Source of the DNA: Thermoplasmatota archaeon | Lineage (GTDB): Archaea; Thermoplasmatota; Thermoplasmata; Thermoplasmatales; Thermoplasmataceae | Direction of reading: 5' to 3' | DNA length: 43,269 nt | Assembly: GCA_023379825.1 (NCBI GenBank) | Contig: JAMCPQ010000031.1 | Coordinates: forward strand, 1-43,269 | Shown: piece by piece, positions 5,799 to 39,207 of the stretch | Layout: each line of letters begins with the position of its first letter | Numbering within the stretch: the first letter of the stretch is position 1 | The notes under the pieces: generated by a model | What the model was told of the DNA's origin: nothing | The model's input: the letters and a program-made list of their open reading frames with translations, nothing else | Databases searched by the model: none | Made by a program: the position numbers and the translations under genes

Positions 5799-6272
5799 AT
5801 GAAGATGACTATTGACGGGTGGGGCAATAATCTGAGATTTTCCTCCGCCCACTTTATTCCTGATCTTGGAAAATGCTCAAGACTGCATGGTCATGACTAT
5901 GCGGTTTCCATTGAACTGGAAGGTGAAATGGAAAATGGTATACTTGTGGATTACGGAGATGTCAAAAAGGTGATTAGAAAGGTTCTGGAAACTTATGATC
6001 ACAGGGTACTTGTTCCGACACTTGGAGTCAGGTCAACCGTAAATGTTCAACAGGAACAGGTAAAGGTGGAATACAGCGGAAAGACTATGAGTTTCTTCAG
6101 GGAGGATGTTTGCTTCATTGAAGCCGATATCTCCTCAAGCGAGAACCTGGCCTCCATTATCGGCTCGCAAATAAAGAAGGAACTTGGCGTTTACAAAAAC
6201 CTCAGCAATCTGACACTTACTGTTTATGAGGGCCCATCACAGGGTTCTTCGGTTCGTATTGACCTGAAATGA
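5799..6272 (+). CDS. queD: 6-carboxy-tetrahydropterin synthase (QueD)
   Basis: Converts 7,8-dihydroneopterin triphosphate to 6-carboxy-tetrahydropterin, the second step towards preQ0. In archaea preQ0 is inserted into tRNA at position 15 and becomes archaeosine. The zinc ligands are His18 (SSAHF), His30 and His32 in CSRLHGHDY. The catalytic cysteine, Cys26, gives the CxxxHGH spacing typical of QueD rather than pyruvoyl-tetrahydropterin synthase. The Asp-His pair is at YDH (66-68) and the substrate-binding glutamate is in VYEGP (Glu143). At 157 aa it is slightly longer than bacterial QueD. The stop overlaps the queC start (ATGA), so the two are translationally coupled. Confidence 0.9.
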   Translation: MKMTIDGWGNNLRFSSAHFIPDLGKCSRLHGHDYAVSIELEGEMENGILVDYGDVKKVIRKVLETYDHRVLVPTLGVRSTVNVQQEQVKVEYSGKTMSFFREDVCFIEADISSSENLASIIGSQIKKELGVYKNLSNLTLTVYEGPSQGSSVRIDLK

Positions 6273-6961
6273 AGGAAAAAGCTGTGGTTCTGCTATCCGG
6301 TGGGCTTGATTCCTCTACAGTGCTAGCCTATGCCATTGAAAGGGGTTTTGAATGCACTGGACTCACCTTTAATTATGGACAGCGCCATGCCAGGGAGAAT
6401 AACTCAGCAAGGGCCATTTCCTCCAGATATGGCATTGAATTGAAAGATGCAAGAATTAACCTTTCTGAATTTATAAAAAGTTCCCTGACCGGTTATGGCA
6501 GCGTTGAGCACAGAGACATAGAGAGCATTGAGGAAAGTTTACCTAATACCTATGTCCCTGCCAGAAACATTATCATGATTTCCATTGCGGCTGGACTCCT
6601 TCAGACCATAGGAGGGAATACAATCTTCATAGGGGCAAACGCACTTGACTATTCTGGATATCCAGACTGCAGGCCCGAGTTTTTCAACGCGATGGAGAAG
6701 GCAATTAACACAGGGACAGGATCAGTGGGCAGTAACCAGATCAGAATTTCAGTACCTCTTCAATATCTCAGAAAATCCGAAATAATTAAAATGGGTATGA
6801 AGATGGGAGTCCCTTATGAACTGACATGGTCATGCTACGAAGGCAATGAGGAAGCCTGTGGAATGTGCGATTCATGCCAGTTGAGGCTCAGAGGATTCAT
6901 GGAGGCGGGAGTTCCTGATCCCATAAAATATTCAAAATATCCGGAATTCTACAAAAAATAG
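6269..6961 (+). CDS. queC: 7-cyano-7-deazaguanine synthase (QueC)
   Basis: An ATP-dependent enzyme that turns 7-carboxy-7-deazaguanine into preQ0, the precursor of archaeosine in tRNA. The PP-loop ATP-binding motif is SGGLDSS (10-16). The structural zinc site is made of Cys189, Cys197, Cys200 and Cys203 near the C-terminus (CYEGNEEACGMCDSC). The length, 230 aa, is normal. It overlaps queD by 4 nt. The other genes of the pathway (queE, GTP cyclohydrolase, archaeal TGT) are not in this window. It converges with mdh, whose stop lies 13 nt away on the other strand. Confidence 0.93.
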   Translation: MKEKAVVLLSGGLDSSTVLAYAIERGFECTGLTFNYGQRHARENNSARAISSRYGIELKDARINLSEFIKSSLTGYGSVEHRDIESIEESLPNTYVPARNIIMISIAAGLLQTIGGNTIFIGANALDYSGYPDCRPEFFNAMEKAINTGTGSVGSNQIRISVPLQYLRKSEIIKMGMKMGVPYELTWSCYEGNEEACGMCDSCQLRLRGFMEAGVPDPIKYSKYPEFYKK

Positions 6962-17529: not shown

Positions 17530-19002
17530 CTAAAGACCTCCTGTATATGCTGTGAGTAAACCGAAGAGCAGATTTGGGAATATGCCCAGAATAAGGATAA
17601 CAACAAGGCTTGCACCAAGGACAACAGTCTGGTAGGTCCCTGAGTCTCTTATGCGGCCAAGATTCTCGTTGTATGGACCATAAAGGGATCTCTGCGCAGC
17701 CCATATGTGATATGATGCAGTGAGTATCATCCCGAAGATAACAAGAAGAATAACCCATCCTATAGCCTGGAAGGACCCCACCAGGACTGAGAACTCCCCT
17801 ATAAACCCTGCCATTCCCGGAAGGCCCAGAGAGGCAAGCAGTCCTGCCAGCAGGAAGGAGGCAAGGAACGGGGTCTCCCTGAATATTCCACCCATTTCAT
17901 GAATATTCTCCTTTCCTGTTGATCTCTTTATGAAATAGAGTGCTGAGAAAACAAAAGCCATGATCAGGCCATGTGCCACTATCTGAAACATTCCGCCGGA
18001 AAGTTCCAGTGTTTTCTCATAACCGGTTTCGAGTCCTCCTGCTCCGAAAGCAAGAACCACAAATCCCATTGAGGCAGCGCTTGCAAGAGCCATCATTCTC
18101 TTGAGGCTGGACTGCATCATTGCCGCCAGCGCAAAATAGACAAGGCTGATTATGCCAAGTGCAATGAGGAATGACAGGACAAATGTCCCAAGAGACTGAG
18201 TGACTGGAAGAAGAATTCCAAACAATCCAAGTCCCCCCATCAGAGAAAGTCCACCTGAAAGTATAACTGTTGCAGGATAGGGGGCCGATTCATAAGAATC
18301 AGGTAGCCAGGAGTGAAGTGGAAATACTGGCATCTTGACCAGAAACGCAAAAAGGAAACCGAATATGGTGAAGTCCCTCCAGAATACTGGCATGTATGAG
18401 AAAGTGCTGTTTGTCATGAGTGAGCCTATCTGGAATGTCAGCACTCCCGTCTGGTCAAAGTGATAGGTGTACACAGCGAATATTGACAGGAGGAGAAACA
18501 CTGAGCCGATATGGGTATATACGAAGAATTTGAGACCTACACTCTCCTTTCTGAAACTCCCGAACTGTGCTATCATGAAATATACAGGTATGAGGACAAC
18601 CTCCCAGAATATGTAGAAGAACAGGAAGTCCCTGGAGATAAGTACCCCAATCAGACCGGACTCAGTGGTCAGAATATAGCTGAACATCACCCTGTCAAGT
18701 TCCTTTTTCTCTGCTATAAGGGTTGAGATGAATATCACTATCACTGACAGTATGAGAAGTGCATCCGTGAAGCCGCTGACCCCGGTGGAGAAGTTTATTC
18801 CTATTGATGGAGCCAGCGAATATGAAACCCGGGAAATAAACCCGCCTGTGTAGCCTGAACTGAACCTTACAAAGCTGTATATCAGAACAAGGGCCACAAA
18901 AATCCCTGCAAAAGCTGTAGCAAAACGATCCCTGTTCTCCCTGATGAAGAATGACAGTATTGCGACGACTATAGTTGCCAGAAAGATTAGAAATATAAAC
19001 AG
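17530..19002 (-). CDS. nuoM: Complex I proton-pumping subunit NuoM (probable CTG start)
   Basis: An antiporter-like subunit with about 14 helices and the NuoM/ND4 signature FPLHSWLPDSYESAPYPATV. The first ordinary start codon in frame is GTG at 18897, but it would remove the first helix. Upstream, the frame is open and encodes a good first helix (LFIFLIFLATIVVAILSFF) and the loop RENRDRFATAF before it reaches a stop at 19026-19024. There is no ATG, GTG or TTG in that stretch. CTG at 19002-19000 follows the nuoL stop by one base and sits 7 nt after GGGGGTG, a strong Shine-Dalgarno. This gives 490 aa, the normal NuoM length. Other non-standard starts cannot be excluded. Confidence 0.85.
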   Translation of the reverse strand: MFIFLIFLATIVVAILSFFIRENRDRFATAFAGIFVALVLIYSFVRFSSGYTGGFISRVSYSLAPSIGINFSTGVSGFTDALLILSVIVIFISTLIAEKKELDRVMFSYILTTESGLIGVLISRDFLFFYIFWEVVLIPVYFMIAQFGSFRKESVGLKFFVYTHIGSVFLLLSIFAVYTYHFDQTGVLTFQIGSLMTNSTFSYMPVFWRDFTIFGFLFAFLVKMPVFPLHSWLPDSYESAPYPATVILSGGLSLMGGLGLFGILLPVTQSLGTFVLSFLIALGIISLVYFALAAMMQSSLKRMMALASAASMGFVVLAFGAGGLETGYEKTLELSGGMFQIVAHGLIMAFVFSALYFIKRSTGKENIHEMGGIFRETPFLASFLLAGLLASLGLPGMAGFIGEFSVLVGSFQAIGWVILLVIFGMILTASYHIWAAQRSLYGPYNENLGRIRDSGTYQTVVLGASLVVILILGIFPNLLFGLLTAYTGGL

Positions 19003-19003
19003 A

Positions 19004-20911
19004 TTAAAGCACCCCCAAAATCTCTATTATTATGAAAATTACAGATATTCCTATTATGAGAAATATGAAATAATTCTCAATAACACCATTCTGCAGCTTT
19101 CTGAAGAATGCACCCAGATTCAGTGTACCGTCGCCAACTCCCTCAACTCCACGGTTGTATGATGCTTCAAAGCTGGCGGTTGCGCCTGAAAAAGCAGCAA
19201 TAAACCTTTCTGCAATAACGTTTGTGAAGAGCCTGTCCAGGTAGAATTTGTTCTTGACAATGCGGTATCCCAGATTCTTTGAAATATCGATTTTTTTGTA
19301 TCTTTCTGTGCCGTATATGAAATATGTAACTATAATTCCAATTGCCATCAGTGTTATTGGAATTGCCTCTATATACAGCGGTATTGAGGGAACAACCGCC
19401 TGCGAATAGACATACCTATAGAAATATGGCTGGATGAGCCCAAGAAACAGTGCACCTGCGCCAAGGATCATGAGAGGGATAAGTACCACCGGCTTGGGAT
19501 CGTGAGCTTTCTCAGCCAGATAGGACCTCGGTTTTCCCAGTGCAACCCTGAAGAACATTCGGAATGTGTATAGAGCGGTAAGGAGTGAGCCTCCTGCCAG
19601 TAGAATCCATGGAATGATTGCATAAGGGGAGCCGGATTTCTCAAAATAAATCCATGATGCTGCAATGATGGAATCCTTGGAAAAGTATCCTGCTGTTCCT
19701 GGAAAAGCCACAAGTGCCAGTGAACCTATGAGCAGAAGAGTAACGGTTATTGGCATGCGTCTCCACAGACCGCCCATTTCCCGGGTATCCCTGAGATCCA
19801 TGAGGGCAATGAGTATTGCTCCTGCACACATGAAAAGAAGAGCTTTGAAGTCAGCATGAACTACCAGGTGAAACATTCCATAGGATACTCCAGAATAACC
19901 TATCACGGAACCGAGACCGATTGCCGCCATCATGTATCCGATCTGGCTGATTGTTGAGTAAGCCAGGATTCTCTTGATGTCATTTACCACTATACCAATT
20001 ATTCCGGCAAAGAATGCTGTGAACGCACCCACTGCAACCACGGAGTAAAGGGCGAATGGTGCTGAGTAATAGAATATAGGAAAGACGCGGGCTACCAGAT
20101 ATACTCCTGCAGTGACCATTGTAGCAGCATGTATAAGTGCCGATACAGTTGTGGGTCCCTCCATTGCATCTGGAATCCAGACATGGAGAGGAAATTGAGC
20201 CGATTTTCCAGCTGCTGCACCGAGAAACAGAACAGCAACTGCACCCAGTGTATTGGGTCCCACATATGAGGCTATGGACTGGGCATGGTTTATCAGGAAC
20301 GGAATGTCCAGAGGACTGACTCCGGAAGTAAGACCCGGGTAACCCATGAGTGAGAAATAAAGAATAGCCATACCTATGAGGAAGAGAAGGTCTCCTACTC
20401 TCGTTACAATGAATGCCTTCTTTGCCGCTGATGTGGCATTAGGCTTGAAGAACCAGAATCCAACAAGTAGATAGGAACAGAGACCCACCAGTTCCCAGAA
20501 CAGGAAGAAAAGGACAAGATTTGAAGATACCACAAGTCCCAGCATTCCTGAAGTGAAAAGGGCCGTTTCCGCAAAATAGATGTGTCTGTTCGGGTCCTCT
20601 CCCATGTAGTACATTGCAAAAATGTGAATCATAAGAGAGACGAATGACACCATAAGAACCATTACGAGGGCAAGATGATCTATGTAGATTCCGGCATTTA
20701 TGTTGAAGAACCAGTTATATGAATTATCTATGGGACCGGAAGACTGAACCCTGAAAAATGCCAGAATGGAGAAAACGAGTGAAAGCCCGATAGCCAATGA
20801 GGCAATGGGGCCAGCGAGCCTCCTGTCATGCCGGCCGAGAGCAAAACTGAGGAATGCCCCCACGATTGGTGTGATGAAGATTAACCAGCCATATATGTAC
20901 ATAGTTACCAC
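19004..20911 (-). CDS. nuoL: Complex I proton-pumping subunit NuoL
   Basis: The distal antiporter-like subunit, 635 aa with some 15-16 helices and a long C-terminal amphipathic stretch (about 530-600) expected to form the lateral helix along the membrane arm. The signature FPLHVWIPDAMEGPTTVSAL and the HAATMVTAGVYL helix are clear, as is the HADFKALLFMCAGA lysine helix. It overlaps nuoK by 7 nt, and its last codons supply the G-rich ribosome site of nuoM. Confidence 0.95.
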   Translation of the reverse strand: MVTMYIYGWLIFITPIVGAFLSFALGRHDRRLAGPIASLAIGLSLVFSILAFFRVQSSGPIDNSYNWFFNINAGIYIDHLALVMVLMVSFVSLMIHIFAMYYMGEDPNRHIYFAETALFTSGMLGLVVSSNLVLFFLFWELVGLCSYLLVGFWFFKPNATSAAKKAFIVTRVGDLLFLIGMAILYFSLMGYPGLTSGVSPLDIPFLINHAQSIASYVGPNTLGAVAVLFLGAAAGKSAQFPLHVWIPDAMEGPTTVSALIHAATMVTAGVYLVARVFPIFYYSAPFALYSVVAVGAFTAFFAGIIGIVVNDIKRILAYSTISQIGYMMAAIGLGSVIGYSGVSYGMFHLVVHADFKALLFMCAGAILIALMDLRDTREMGGLWRRMPITVTLLLIGSLALVAFPGTAGYFSKDSIIAASWIYFEKSGSPYAIIPWILLAGGSLLTALYTFRMFFRVALGKPRSYLAEKAHDPKPVVLIPLMILGAGALFLGLIQPYFYRYVYSQAVVPSIPLYIEAIPITLMAIGIIVTYFIYGTERYKKIDISKNLGYRIVKNKFYLDRLFTNVIAERFIAAFSGATASFEASYNRGVEGVGDGTLNLGAFFRKLQNGVIENYFIFLIIGISVIFIIIEILGVL

Positions 20912-24726: not shown

Positions 24727-25191
24727 TCACCTGTCCGTCTCGTTTCTGATCTTCTTCTGAAGAAGCATTATACCATGGGTAAGTGCCTCCGGTGTAGGGG
24801 GACATCCAGGCACATAAACATCTACTGGCACAACTTTATCTACACCAAGAACCACAGAATAACCCTGATTGTAAGGTCCGCCCTGTATAACGCATACTCC
24901 CATGGCAATGACATATTTCGGGTAGGGCATCTCTTCGTAAAGCCTCCTGACTCTGGGCGCCATTTTCTTTGTGACAGTTCCTGCCACAATCATCAGGTCA
25001 GACTGCCTTGGAGAATTTCTGAAAACCTCACTGCCAAAGCGTGCTATATCCATATCAGCTGCCTGGATAGCCATCATCTCAATGGCACAGCAGGCCAGAC
25101 CAAATGTTAATGGCCATAGAGAATTGCTTCTGCCCCATTCCATAGCCTGCTCCAGGGTTGTTGTCACCACACCTCCATCGCCTGTTTTCAT
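24727..25191 (-). CDS. nuoB: Complex I subunit NuoB (cluster N2)
   Basis: The subunit that holds the last iron-sulfur cluster (N2) before quinone, 154 aa. The ligands are the tandem Cys34-Cys35 ([10 protein letters not shown]), Cys100 (AMGVCV) and Cys130 ([12 protein letters not shown]). The family usually has Ser or Ala in the second position of MGxC; here it is Val. The ATG overlaps the nuoA stop by 4 nt. Confidence 0.95.
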
Positions 25192-25625
25192 TTAAGCCAC
25201 CTCATATAGCCCTCTTTAAAGGCATAACTTACAACAAACAGAGGCATTGCAAGGAATGCAAGTGTTTCAAGAAAAGGAATCAGGCCAAGTTTCATAAAGT
25301 CAAAGGCCCATGGAAAAAGCAGAACCATATCAACATCGAAAAGTATGAAAAGCAATATTATGACGAAATACTGCACATTTATTGAAGAGCGGAAATCCCC
25401 CCTGGAAACCTCACCGCTCTCATAGGGCTCAAGATATTCTCCATTCTTTACAGGAGGGCCAATCTCCCTTGATGCGTTTTCTATAATAACGTCGGGCTTG
25501 AGAGAGATCTTCTGGCTTCGTTTGAATCTGTTAGCCCCAATGGTTGGCAGCACCATATAGATTGTAATTAACCCCCCGATTATTAACACAAGGACAATCA
25601 GCAAAGGGATGTAGCCATCCAACAT
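25188..25625 (-). CDS. nuoA: Complex I membrane subunit NuoA
   Basis: A small membrane subunit of 145 aa with three helices. The middle shows [13 protein letters not shown], close to the family's FDVE.xFLFPWA; Asp replaces the usual Glu. Between helix 1 and helix 2 is a loop with [16 protein letters not shown]. It is the first gene of the operon, and the ATG is about 25 nt from the TATA element at 25646-25654 with no Shine-Dalgarno, so the nuo mRNA seems leaderless. Confidence 0.93.
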
Positions 25626-25695: not shown

Positions 25696-27501
25696 TTAAC
25701 TGGATTTTCTCACTTTCTTGTACATCTCCATGGCTACTGCAGGGTTGAATTTTTTATCAGTTAAACCCCTCAAACGAGGGATAAGATTTTTCTCTGAAAT
25801 ATCTGGTATTGAAGCGGCTTTCTCAACAAGCAACGAAAGGTCACCGGATGAGAGGAAAGATTTTCTGACCTCTTCCCATGCTTTTTCTTGAGGAGTATTA
25901 TCTTCGAAATGTATTTTCATTGCATATTCTATGGTCTCTCTGTCCAGATCAAAAGCCGGTGCCTTTTTCATAAGTTCAGCAACCTCTTCTCCCCTGATCT
26001 CCCTACCTGCGGTCTTTGAGATTTCAGGAATGATGTGAAGCAAAAGCCTGGAAGAAAGTGAACCGTCTCTGATGATCTCGAGGAAAAGGAGAAATTCATG
26101 CAGCATACCCTTCCTGACAATTGTTTCCGAATCCTGAATGGATATTCCATATTTTTCCGAAATGTCTGAAATGACAGATTCCACTGGCACTGGTTTGATT
26201 TTTTCAGCTTCTTCCATAAAGGGGAGTATATTGATGACTGGCACATCAGTTTCAGGATACATTCTTGCCCCGCCCGGAAGTGGCCTTAGAAAGGAGGTTG
26301 TGCCATCCTGGTTCAGATAACGTGTCTCGGAGAGAGTCATATCACATATTGTTTTTAACCTTGAATTGAGTTCGGTTTCCATTAATTCTTTCAATTGGGG
26401 TCTCATCGTAACTATGATGAATGCATCTCCATCACAGCATCCGAGTTTCTCTCTGATCGGTCCTATCTCATGATCTATACCGAAGGCCGGAAGTTCATCC
26501 GAATGCATTAGGCCACCACCTCCGAAAGCTTTCACAATATCAGAAAGCTCCTTTCCAAGCCTCAAATCTCCTTTTTTCATTATACCTGCGCATCCTGTCA
26601 GCCTTGAAACATATATGGAAAGTCCTGATTTCATTGATTTCCTGAGGATGTTCGAGGTCGTCTTTTCGAATAAATCACCGGATTCCGTGAGAGAAATGTG
26701 TGGTATTCCCGCACCCTTCAGAAATTCTGAAACTTTCCTTAGGCCATTCTGCCTTTCCATCTCATACCTTATGCATGATTCTATGTCAGATAGCTTCTGG
26801 ACACCTTTTATCTCAACTCTTCCAAACCCCATTGAGAAATTTACGTCCTGCCTTATGGAATCTGCCCCTTTCCTCAGCCAGCCTGCGGCGATGAGCGGGG
26901 CACCTATGATCTCTGCCACTTCCCTGGCGTGTTCAGGGGATTTTATATCCGGTTCGGTGGATATTTCCATCAGTGGTATTCCAAGCCTTCCAAGGCTGTA
27001 TTCAACAGTACTCCCTTCCTGTTCTATCTTCCTGCAGGAATCCTCCTCGAGACAGATTGATGAAATTCTCACCGGCCCCATTCCTGTTTCAATCCTGCCT
27101 CCAATGCCAATTATGGCCGTTCTCTGAAAGCCGGATGTGTTTGAACCGTCCACAACAATCTTTCTCATATACTGCACATGGGACATTGTGATGCAATTCA
27201 GGTACATTGAAGTGGAAATTGCCTTTTTCATTGCTTCGTGGTTAATATCCTGAGGTGGCTCCTCATCCGCATCAACAAGACAGGAATTGTCTGTTATGGT
27301 ATACTGAAAGGACCTGTCCCTCTTTCGTTCATAAATTACAGCAGGGTCTGTATCACCTGTTTCGCCGCTTGTTGTGCCCAGCACCCTGAAGAATTTTCCA
27401 ATATCCTCCTTTGCTGTTTCGGTGGGACAGTGGCAGAAGAGCTTCTTTCCAGATAGTTGAAGATGGACTTCGAGACCTATCTTTATTGGATTCTGGTTCA
27501 G
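25696..27501 (-). CDS. gatE: Glu-tRNA(Gln) amidotransferase subunit E (probable CTG start)
   Basis: Works with GatD to turn Glu-tRNA(Gln) into Gln-tRNA(Gln), the archaeal route to glutaminyl-tRNA. The first ordinary in-frame start is GTG at 27384, but it would delete conserved N-terminal sequence. Upstream, the frame encodes IKIGLEVHLQLSGKKLFCHC, the GatB/GatE signature. No ATG, GTG or TTG occurs before the frame closes. CTG at 27501-27499 overlaps the gatD stop as CTGA and follows GGAGGTG by 5 nt, giving 601 aa, the usual GatE size. ATT one codon earlier is the only rival. The C-terminal part is the helical YqeY-like tail domain (about 480-601). Confidence 0.9.
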   Translation of the reverse strand: MNQNPIKIGLEVHLQLSGKKLFCHCPTETAKEDIGKFFRVLGTTSGETGDTDPAVIYERKRDRSFQYTITDNSCLVDADEEPPQDINHEAMKKAISTSMYLNCITMSHVQYMRKIVVDGSNTSGFQRTAIIGIGGRIETGMGPVRISSICLEEDSCRKIEQEGSTVEYSLGRLGIPLMEISTEPDIKSPEHAREVAEIIGAPLIAAGWLRKGADSIRQDVNFSMGFGRVEIKGVQKLSDIESCIRYEMERQNGLRKVSEFLKGAGIPHISLTESGDLFEKTTSNILRKSMKSGLSIYVSRLTGCAGIMKKGDLRLGKELSDIVKAFGGGGLMHSDELPAFGIDHEIGPIREKLGCCDGDAFIIVTMRPQLKELMETELNSRLKTICDMTLSETRYLNQDGTTSFLRPLPGGARMYPETDVPVINILPFMEEAEKIKPVPVESVISDISEKYGISIQDSETIVRKGMLHEFLLFLEIIRDGSLSSRLLLHIIPEISKTAGREIRGEEVAELMKKAPAFDLDRETIEYAMKIHFEDNTPQEKAWEEVRKSFLSSGDLSLLVEKAASIPDISEKNLIPRLRGLTDKKFNPAVAMEMYKKVRKSS

Positions 27502-28730
27502 AATTCCACCTCCCTTGATAGCAGTTCTCCACGCATATCTGTGATCATCATCTCTTTGAACTTATCAGCAGGATAGTTCGCAGCAACATGCATGGCCTTC
27601 ACAAGGGCTGTCTCCGGGAACATGTCACCCAGAGGTATCACCCCCAGTTCAGTCAGCTGCCTTCCAGTGGAGTAAACGTCCATGTCAACGCGTCCGCCAA
27701 GGCACTGTGTCGTCATCATGAATTTCGTACCATCTCTGGTAAGAGATTTAAGGGAATCAAACAGCCTTGAAGAGATGTGCCCCATTCCCGTGCCGGCAAT
27801 CACCACAATATTTTTCCCGCTGCACATAGCGTGAAAATCGTCCGGACCCATCAGAGGATGGAAATAGACCAGTGCTGCCCTTTTCTCCAGGGAAGAGGAG
27901 AAACTGACCTTTTCCATAGAACATGGAATGGTTCCCGGTTCAACTGTGCTTGAACGGTTGCTGTACAGTGCCATAGGGGGTACCCCGGGTGATCGGAATG
28001 CATCCCTTCTCGAGGAATGCATTTTTCTTGTCCGCACGCCTCTCAGCAGCGAAACAGAGGTATCGGAAATGGAATTGTGCATGCATATCCCAACCTCGCC
28101 TATGTTCTGTCTGCTGAATTCCAGTGCTGCCTCAAGATTCAGGTATGCATCGGTACTTGGCCTGTCAGAACTCCTCTGTGAACCCACAAGAATGACAGGT
28201 CTCTTCAGTGAACTGAACATGAATGCAAGAGCAGATGCCGTGTAAGACATGGTGTCAGTTCCATGTAGTATTATGCAGCTTCTCCCTTTTTCCTGAGCTT
28301 CATGTACTATTTTTCCTATCCTCTGCCAGATCTCAGGGGTCATGTTTTCGCTGAGAATTGGCTCCATCAGCTTAACCTCATACCTGAAGGAAGTTATGTT
28401 CGGGATATTTTCACCAAGAATTCCCGGATCAAAGACAGGGGTGACAGCCCCGGTTAGGTAATCCACCCTGCTTGCAATAGTTCCGCCTGTTGCAATTATC
28501 TCAACTTCTGCTTCCTTGTTCTCTGACGGAGGGGAAGAATGATGAGAAACTGTAATCTCCTCCCTGTGAATAATTTCAATTGAATCAACAGGGACAGATA
28601 TGTTGTAACCGCTGCTCAGTTTTATATTGTACTGTCTTGAATCATGGCTCACCAGAATCCCTGACATTTCCATCTTCTGATAGATGAATTTAATCCTTTC
28701 TCCCGATTTTGCAGTTGCGCTTGACGACAT
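27498..28730 (-). CDS. gatD: Glu-tRNA(Gln) amidotransferase subunit D
   Basis: Hydrolyses glutamine or asparagine to supply ammonia to GatE. The 410-aa protein has an N-terminal beta-barrel (about 10-60; KFIYQKMEMSGILVSHD) and an asparaginase-like catalytic domain with ATGGTIAS (80-87) and LHGTDTMSYTA (155-165), holding the catalytic threonines and aspartate. It ends four bases inside gatE, and its final codons (AGGGAGGTG) form the ribosome site for gatE. The start is 37 nt after the DUF72 gene, so the pair belongs to the same minus-strand transcript. Confidence 0.93.
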   Translation of the reverse strand: MSSSATAKSGERIKFIYQKMEMSGILVSHDSRQYNIKLSSGYNISVPVDSIEIIHREEITVSHHSSPPSENKEAEVEIIATGGTIASRVDYLTGAVTPVFDPGILGENIPNITSFRYEVKLMEPILSENMTPEIWQRIGKIVHEAQEKGRSCIILHGTDTMSYTASALAFMFSSLKRPVILVGSQRSSDRPSTDAYLNLEAALEFSRQNIGEVGICMHNSISDTSVSLLRGVRTRKMHSSRRDAFRSPGVPPMALYSNRSSTVEPGTIPCSMEKVSFSSSLEKRAALVYFHPLMGPDDFHAMCSGKNIVVIAGTGMGHISSRLFDSLKSLTRDGTKFMMTTQCLGGRVDMDVYSTGRQLTELGVIPLGDMFPETALVKAMHVAANYPADKFKEMMITDMRGELLSREVEF

Positions 28731-38373: not shown

Positions 38374-39207
38374 TCAAATGCACTCCAGTATTTCTGCTGC
38401 AAGTTCTATTTTTCCCATTGGCATCAGATGAATCCCGTCCACGTAGCCCTTCAGATCATCATATGTTTCCTTTATGATCCTTGAGGAAGCCTCCTCAATG
38501 TTTTCAGCGTTTTCCAGTCTTTTCCGGTTATCCTCAGATATTCTGGAACCCATCTTTTCCAGAAACTGTATCTGACCTTTTCTGCTCAGCGGCATGAAAC
38601 CAGCAAGCAGTCGGTAATTTCTCCTGAGCAGCCATTCTTTCTTCAGCGCGGAGGAATCAAATATAATCTGTGATATGAAGAATCCTGAACCCTTTGAAAT
38701 CTTTGAACTTAAAATTGCCTCCTCCTGATCCCTGAATGGGTTCATTGCAGCTCCAATTGCGATCTCCTGCGACCTGTTCTCCTCGGGGAGAAGGTTTACC
38801 GATGACCTGACACATTCGATGAGACCCAGGGTATCAACCTCCCTTACCTCCCTGGAATTATTTTTTGGATTTATTGGGTCTCCAGATATTGTGAAGAAAT
38901 TTCTGATGCCTAGTTTCAGTGCCGTGAGCACCTGTGTCTGTATCTGAATCCTGTTCCTGTCTCTTGGTGTGATGTGGGGCACAGCGATCATATCACTTTG
39001 TGACGCGATCAGATAGGTTGCTATGACCGGATCTATGCCGGGTCCACCCATGGGATTGTCGGGAGATGTAATCATCCTGGCCTTTCCTTCCAGTCTGGAG
39101 ATTGCGGTTATGAGTTCGTCCATATTAAGAGACTTTCTGGGAACAACCTCCACCGACTTCAGAGGGCCGGAAAACGCAGTTACAAGATCATTTCTCACTT
39201 TTTGCAC
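38374..39207 (-). CDS. metF: Methylenetetrahydrofolate reductase family protein
   Basis: A 277-aa TIM-barrel flavoenzyme of the MetF family, predicted to reduce methylene-tetrahydrofolate (or a related archaeal C1 carrier) to the methyl form used for methionine. Typical segments are SVEVVPRKSLNMDEL, VPHITPRDRNRIQIQTQ, IRNFFTISGDP, and ISKGSGFFISQIIFDS; GDP near residue 109 and the QIIFD strand belong to the family core. It starts with GTG at 39207, about 22 nt after an AT-rich element, without a Shine-Dalgarno. It is the first gene of a metF-metE operon. The donor and cofactor in this organism are unknown. Confidence 0.87.
   Translation of the reverse strand: MQKVRNDLVTAFSGPLKSVEVVPRKSLNMDELITAISRLEGKARMITSPDNPMGGPGIDPVIATYLIASQSDMIAVPHITPRDRNRIQIQTQVLTALKLGIRNFFTISGDPINPKNNSREVREVDTLGLIECVRSSVNLLPEENRSQEIAIGAAMNPFRDQEEAILSSKISKGSGFFISQIIFDSSALKKEWLLRRNYRLLAGFMPLSRKGQIQFLEKMGSRISEDNRKRLENAENIEEASSRIIKETYDDLKGYVDGIHLMPMGKIELAAEILECI

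Follow-up and report, generated by a model that had tools for sequence, protein, structure and literature searches.

The window analysed here is a 43,269-nucleotide stretch of the genome of a Thermoplasmatota archaeon, which carries on its reverse strand two adjoining genes, gatD (27498..28730) and gatE (25696..27501). The product of the former has Pfam matches to Asparaginase and Asparaginase_C, and the latter, a presumably essential gene encoding Glu-tRNA(Gln) amidotransferase subunit E, comprises 601 codons when read from a CTG codon at 27499..27501 and matches GatB_N (E=9.7e-48). GatD and GatE form an established complex, and these domain matches indicate that the overlapping pair encodes the subunits of one complex. 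The gatD stop codon occupies positions 27500-27498, giving a four-base CTGA overlap with the CTG at 27501-27499. In the original prediction this CTG was regarded as the gatE start, and the CTGA was described as the counterpart of ATGA overlaps elsewhere in the window; such 4-nt overlaps do occur at 5799..6272/6269..6961 and 24727..25191/25188..25625. A Shine-Dalgarno (SD) sequence, GGAGGTG, was found 5 nt upstream of the CTG on the same strand, as had been claimed (27507..27513, read 27513-27507). Its duplex with the assumed 16S rRNA 3' end has an energy of -14.7 kcal/mol; this and all other SD energies were computed with the standard archaeal anti-SD sequence, which may not be exactly that of the window genome itself. 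Two further codons of the same frame and strand are relevant, an ATT adjoining the CTG on its 5' side (27502..27504) and an internal GTG (27382..27384), the first canonical start codon in frame.

The gatE frame is open for 20 codons 5' of the CTG (GTT CAA AGA GAT GAT GAT CAC AGA TAT GCG TGG AGA ACT GCT ATC AAG GGA GGT GGA ATT), and the open stretch is bounded by TGA TAA. Reading of this stretch confirmed that there is no ATG, GTG or TTG in frame from the upstream in-frame stop to the GTG at 27384, which comes 39 codons after the CTG. The product of these 39 codons, LNQNPIKIGLEVHLQLSGKKLFCHCPTETAKEDIGKFFR, had been described as conserved GatB/GatE-type sequence, and the comparisons bear this out: an alignment of 28 homologues shows no variation at the residues G, L, E, H and Q of the N-terminal KIGLEVHLQL, and in the match to the solved GatE structure, PDB 1zq1_C (E=1.6e-90), the N-terminus is aligned from residue 6. 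The GatB/GatE catalytic domain is present with its conserved N-terminal strand included, and no canonical start is able to produce this conserved N-terminus.

One further genome represents the genus in this comparison, G001, and its GatE protein is 73% identical to that of the window species. The sequence at the gatE start, GGAGGTGGAATTCTGA, is the same in both species, including the CTG itself (G001 loci L002/L161), and no canonical start lies upstream of the CTG in G001. The first canonical codon of G001 gatE comes 74 codons after the CTG, and the position of the window GTG is occupied by an isoleucine codon. Over the 39 codons following the CTG, the two species differ at 3, 6 and 21 first, second and third codon positions, respectively. 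Judged from this comparison, the third-position-biased divergence marks the stretch as translated and under protein-level selection. A start at GTG 27384, leaving the 39 upstream codons untranslated, could be called by standard gene-finding software, this being the first canonical start, but it would delete the KIGLEVHLQL strand with its invariant residues, it is preceded by a weak SD (-3.3) at poor spacing, and it conflicts both with the isoleucine codon of the sister species and with the biased divergence upstream. This alternative, named in the original prediction, is thus extremely improbable.

The ATT codon is another rival, ATT being a known weak start, as in infC of E. coli. It is in frame and kept in both members of the genus, and AUU/AUA starts with an extended SD have a precedent in S. 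aureus (PMC13009471). However, the spacing between the SD and the ATT (27504-27502) is just 2 nt, the SD score of the ATT is -10.9 vs -14.7 for the CTG, and its conservation is accounted for by the GatD residues EF (GAA TTC) encoded in the overlapping frame. No ATT is present at that place in the other CTG-bearing lineages or in nuoM, both described below. Initiation at the ATT, a further alternative raised originally, is therefore very improbable, and the CTG remains the preferred start.

To place this start in a wider context, gatE starts were taken from 117 genomes of the order, largely metagenome assemblies, and 109 loci were scored by start candidates and SD pairing energy. In 17 genomes among the 109 scored loci, either no candidate other than CTG lay within reach or CTG clearly surpassed the others, namely the two genus members, L013, L051, L039 and 12 members of family f5 (g29 and g30). 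The original prediction had proposed an alignment of gatE starts in relatives; in this alignment CTG is kept in G001 and the corresponding column in sister genomes of CTG bearers holds ATG or TTG, which supports the CTG start. L013 (g17) is CTG-only; in its close g17 sisters this column reads ATG and the SD is weaker (-10.5 kcal/mol vs -16.2 in L013). L051 (g12) is likewise CTG-only, its g12 sisters having TTG and ATG, and L039 (g19) has CTG where its sister has TTG, with a weak-SD GTG also available in L039. Within f5, L104 and effectively L100 are CTG-only, and the CTG is common to 10 further genomes. Most f5 genomes also offer a GTG three codons upstream of the CTG, but this GTG falls within the SD-like stretch (GGGGTGAGATCT CTG) and lacks a good SD; L100 and L104 have lost it. 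L092 and L105, representing genera sister to the f5 CTG genomes, have ATG at the CTG column.

On a maximum-likelihood tree the CTG label needs six changes, every one of them forced by well-supported branches. The tree suggests that gatE switched to or from CTG separately about five or six times in the order, and the pattern in f5 could reflect either two gains or a single gain plus a loss. SD pairing is stronger in the 17 CTG cases, with a median of -11.7 kcal/mol, than in the 66 cases with ATG, where the median is -10.0 kcal/mol (Mann-Whitney p=0.0002, a value that treats related genomes as independent, the CTG being partly picked by its SD where alternatives exist). A scan of wider archaeal contigs with GatE found no loci; a scan with the alignment yielded 80 gatE loci, of which 76 were scorable, and in this wider sample a CTG-type start was found in f5 members only. 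As a separate observation, gatE of four g6 genomes (L056, L059, L065 and L067) offers only GTG or ATG, in either case with a weak SD and inside or beside the SD-like stretch, and the true start there could be an ATT, which stands at normal SD spacing.

A second gene of the window has the same kind of start. The nuoM-like gene (17530..19002, reverse strand; Proton_antipo_M E=9.3e-52) comprises 490 codons from a CTG at 19000..19002, which is located 1 nt after the TAA stop (19004-19006) of the nuoL-like gene upstream (19004..20911, same strand). Its SD, GGGGGTG (19010..19016), has a duplex energy of -12.1 kcal/mol. No ATG, GTG or TTG occurs in the nuoM frame before a GTG at 18897, and the 35 codons upstream of this GTG read as the first membrane helix. 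Differences between the window species and G001 after the nuoM CTG are distributed as 2/2/12 over the three codon positions. At the nuoM start column of 30 loci, the two genus members have CTG, and 28/28 others have ATG, GTG or TTG. In four g3 genomes (L126, L127, L129 and L130), a CTG stands directly 5' of the nuoM ATG start (CTG ATG), possibly an intermediate arrangement. The original prediction is supported for the gatE CTG itself and was too narrow in its range, as the switch extends to nuoM and, within the order, to several further lineages.

These data bear on two other explanations of the gatE locus. Over the 20 codons that lead up to the gatD stop, the gatD and gatE frames are both open, so a -1 ribosomal frameshift from gatD could in principle enter gatE and produce a fusion or shifted product. 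However, the slippery heptamer is missing at the end of gatD (GTG GAA TTC TGA), L013 has an in-frame TGA three codons 5' of its gatE CTG, leaving almost no room for a frameshift, and nuoM, where a stop is followed by a 1-nt gap, is hard to explain in this way; a frameshift is thus very unlikely. An assembly or sequencing error replacing ATG or GTG might be suspected in a draft genome that is 82% complete and comprises 53 contigs. Yet a second species has the same gatE codon, further genera and families have it independently, and the nuoM CTG is likewise present in both genus members. Because independent assemblies agree, this last alternative of the original prediction can be dismissed with near certainty, and a genuine CTG start is retained.

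The occurrence of CTG starts was then assessed in sampled stretches amounting to ~340 kb from the window genome and 222 kb from its sister. In a coding-potential scan of both samples, the clear long extensions were nuoM and, in the sister, gatE; with looser limits the scan returned gatE in both genomes, a helicase gene and one uninformative CTG-ATG case. The helicase gene, UvrD-like according to Pfam (L141 14837-17548, contig C1), has a CTG start that is CTGA-coupled to a cobO-like gene. In its relatives the start lies 7-16 codons 5' of the nucleotide-binding motif; the internal GTG, here only 2 codons before the motif, would be out of line as a start. In G001 the helicase protein reportedly has 100% identity, in contrast to GatE (73%), and contigs that are shared or misbinned may be the reason. 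When both genus genomes were searched with a strict SD pattern, gatE was the sole CTG-only start, and none of the loci read in five other genomes added a new one. At strong-SD positions before first canonical starts in the window genome, CTG was found in 3/18 cases vs 2.3% expected (p=0.008, with small numbers). Three genes, gatE, nuoM and the helicase gene, have CTG-only starts in the ~340 kb of the window genome, and on this genomic evidence the use of CTG starts there is rare but real. An MTHFR-like gene of the window (38374-39207) has a GTG start without an SD; the sequence before it is conserved in G001, in which a canonical start is absent for longer, and this gene may have an unusual start of another kind or a leaderless promoter.

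GGAGGTG-N5-CTG has a single exact occurrence in the window, and with one mismatch allowed it occurs 4 times vs 2.67 in shuffled sequences. Given this lack of excess over shuffles, the motif alone was not taken as evidence. The case for the gatE CTG is instead one of conservation, built on the biased divergence after the CTG and on the start-column alignment.

Taken with the rejection of the rival starts, this comparative evidence makes it very probable that gatE is translated from the CTG at 27501-27499, presumably by means of its SD, stop-coupled reinitiation and the normal Met-tRNAi, yielding full-length GatE. Ribosomes ending gatD would halt at the overlapping TGA, and the strong SD, GGAGGTG, within the last gatD codons would hold or re-recruit the small subunit. 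The initiator Met-tRNA (CAU) would then form an imperfect pairing with CUG, and the resulting full-length GatE would begin with Met. Initiation would thus use Met-tRNAi and would rely on the SD and on termination-reinitiation coupling, presumably with an output weaker than that from AUG.

An altered initiation machinery, through either a CAG initiator tRNA or a missing aIF1, was also considered. In Sulfolobus, aIF1 promotes discrimination against non-canonical starts (PMC6237735), and it is present in both genus members; the initiator tRNA was also found, with anticodon CAU, the A1-U72 pair and three G-C anticodon-stem pairs. The idea was not supported by these findings, made in an incomplete genome. 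As the initiator tRNA and aIF1 both look ordinary, it is likely that Met-tRNAi is placed on the CUG by the strong SD and the stop coupling, for which no special machinery would be required. Termination-reinitiation coupling is known for archaeal overlapping gene pairs, which often encode subunits of one complex (PMC10666635), and by analogy gatD-gatE, a stop/start overlap of 4 nt between subunits of one complex, fits this pattern. The archaeal 4-nt overlap is usually ATGA (or GTGA/TTGA) (PMC10666635), whereas that of gatD-gatE is CTGA. A wider and rather doubtful possibility is that CUG is a regular minor fourth start codon in Thermoplasmatales-like archaea, with gatE as a hotspot because weak stop-coupled initiation would tune GatE to GatD or to the Gln-tRNA supply.

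Archaeal start codons are given in a review as AUG, GUG and UUG (PMC7531240). A search of the literature, outside which most subscription journals lay, found no proven archaeal CUG start and one earlier proposal, HVO_1510 of Haloferax volcanii (PMC8305020). This archaeal case resembles gatE in that protein is expressed upstream of the first usable ordinary start and an in-frame CTG was proposed, but it is a single strain-variable case with a rival slippage explanation, and its CTG is not conserved across species or lineages. Replacement of a start codon by CUG in evolution, as in gatE, has been recorded in triplets of annotated prokaryotic genomes, where AUG-to-CUG switches proved very rare, affecting 2/61,358 AUG starts (PMC5622118); in gatE, about five or six independent switches appear to have occurred in one gene of one order. 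The best mechanistic parallel is provided by the bacterial AUU/AUA starts of infC, cvfC1 and ccpN (PMC13009471), which are likewise non-canonical starts kept in relatives with an unusually strong SD close by. They differ in being bacterial, in using AUU/AUA and in belonging mainly to regulators, and they were demonstrated by ribosome profiling and reporters, whereas the evidence for the CUG of gatE is comparative.

CTG is not considered as a start by Prodigal (PMC2848648), and therefore CTG starts go unseen. A gene finder restricted to ATG, GTG and TTG truncates proteins with CTG starts; in the window this concerns an enzyme of tRNA amidation and a subunit of complex I, the latter of which, nuoM, would lose its first membrane helix if begun at the ordinary start. 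The gatE and nuoM data provide conserved, multi-lineage comparative evidence for CUG initiation in archaea. The gatE start itself constitutes a natural series, with ATG, TTG and CTG at one site and with varying SD strength, for the trade-off between start codon and SD in archaea.
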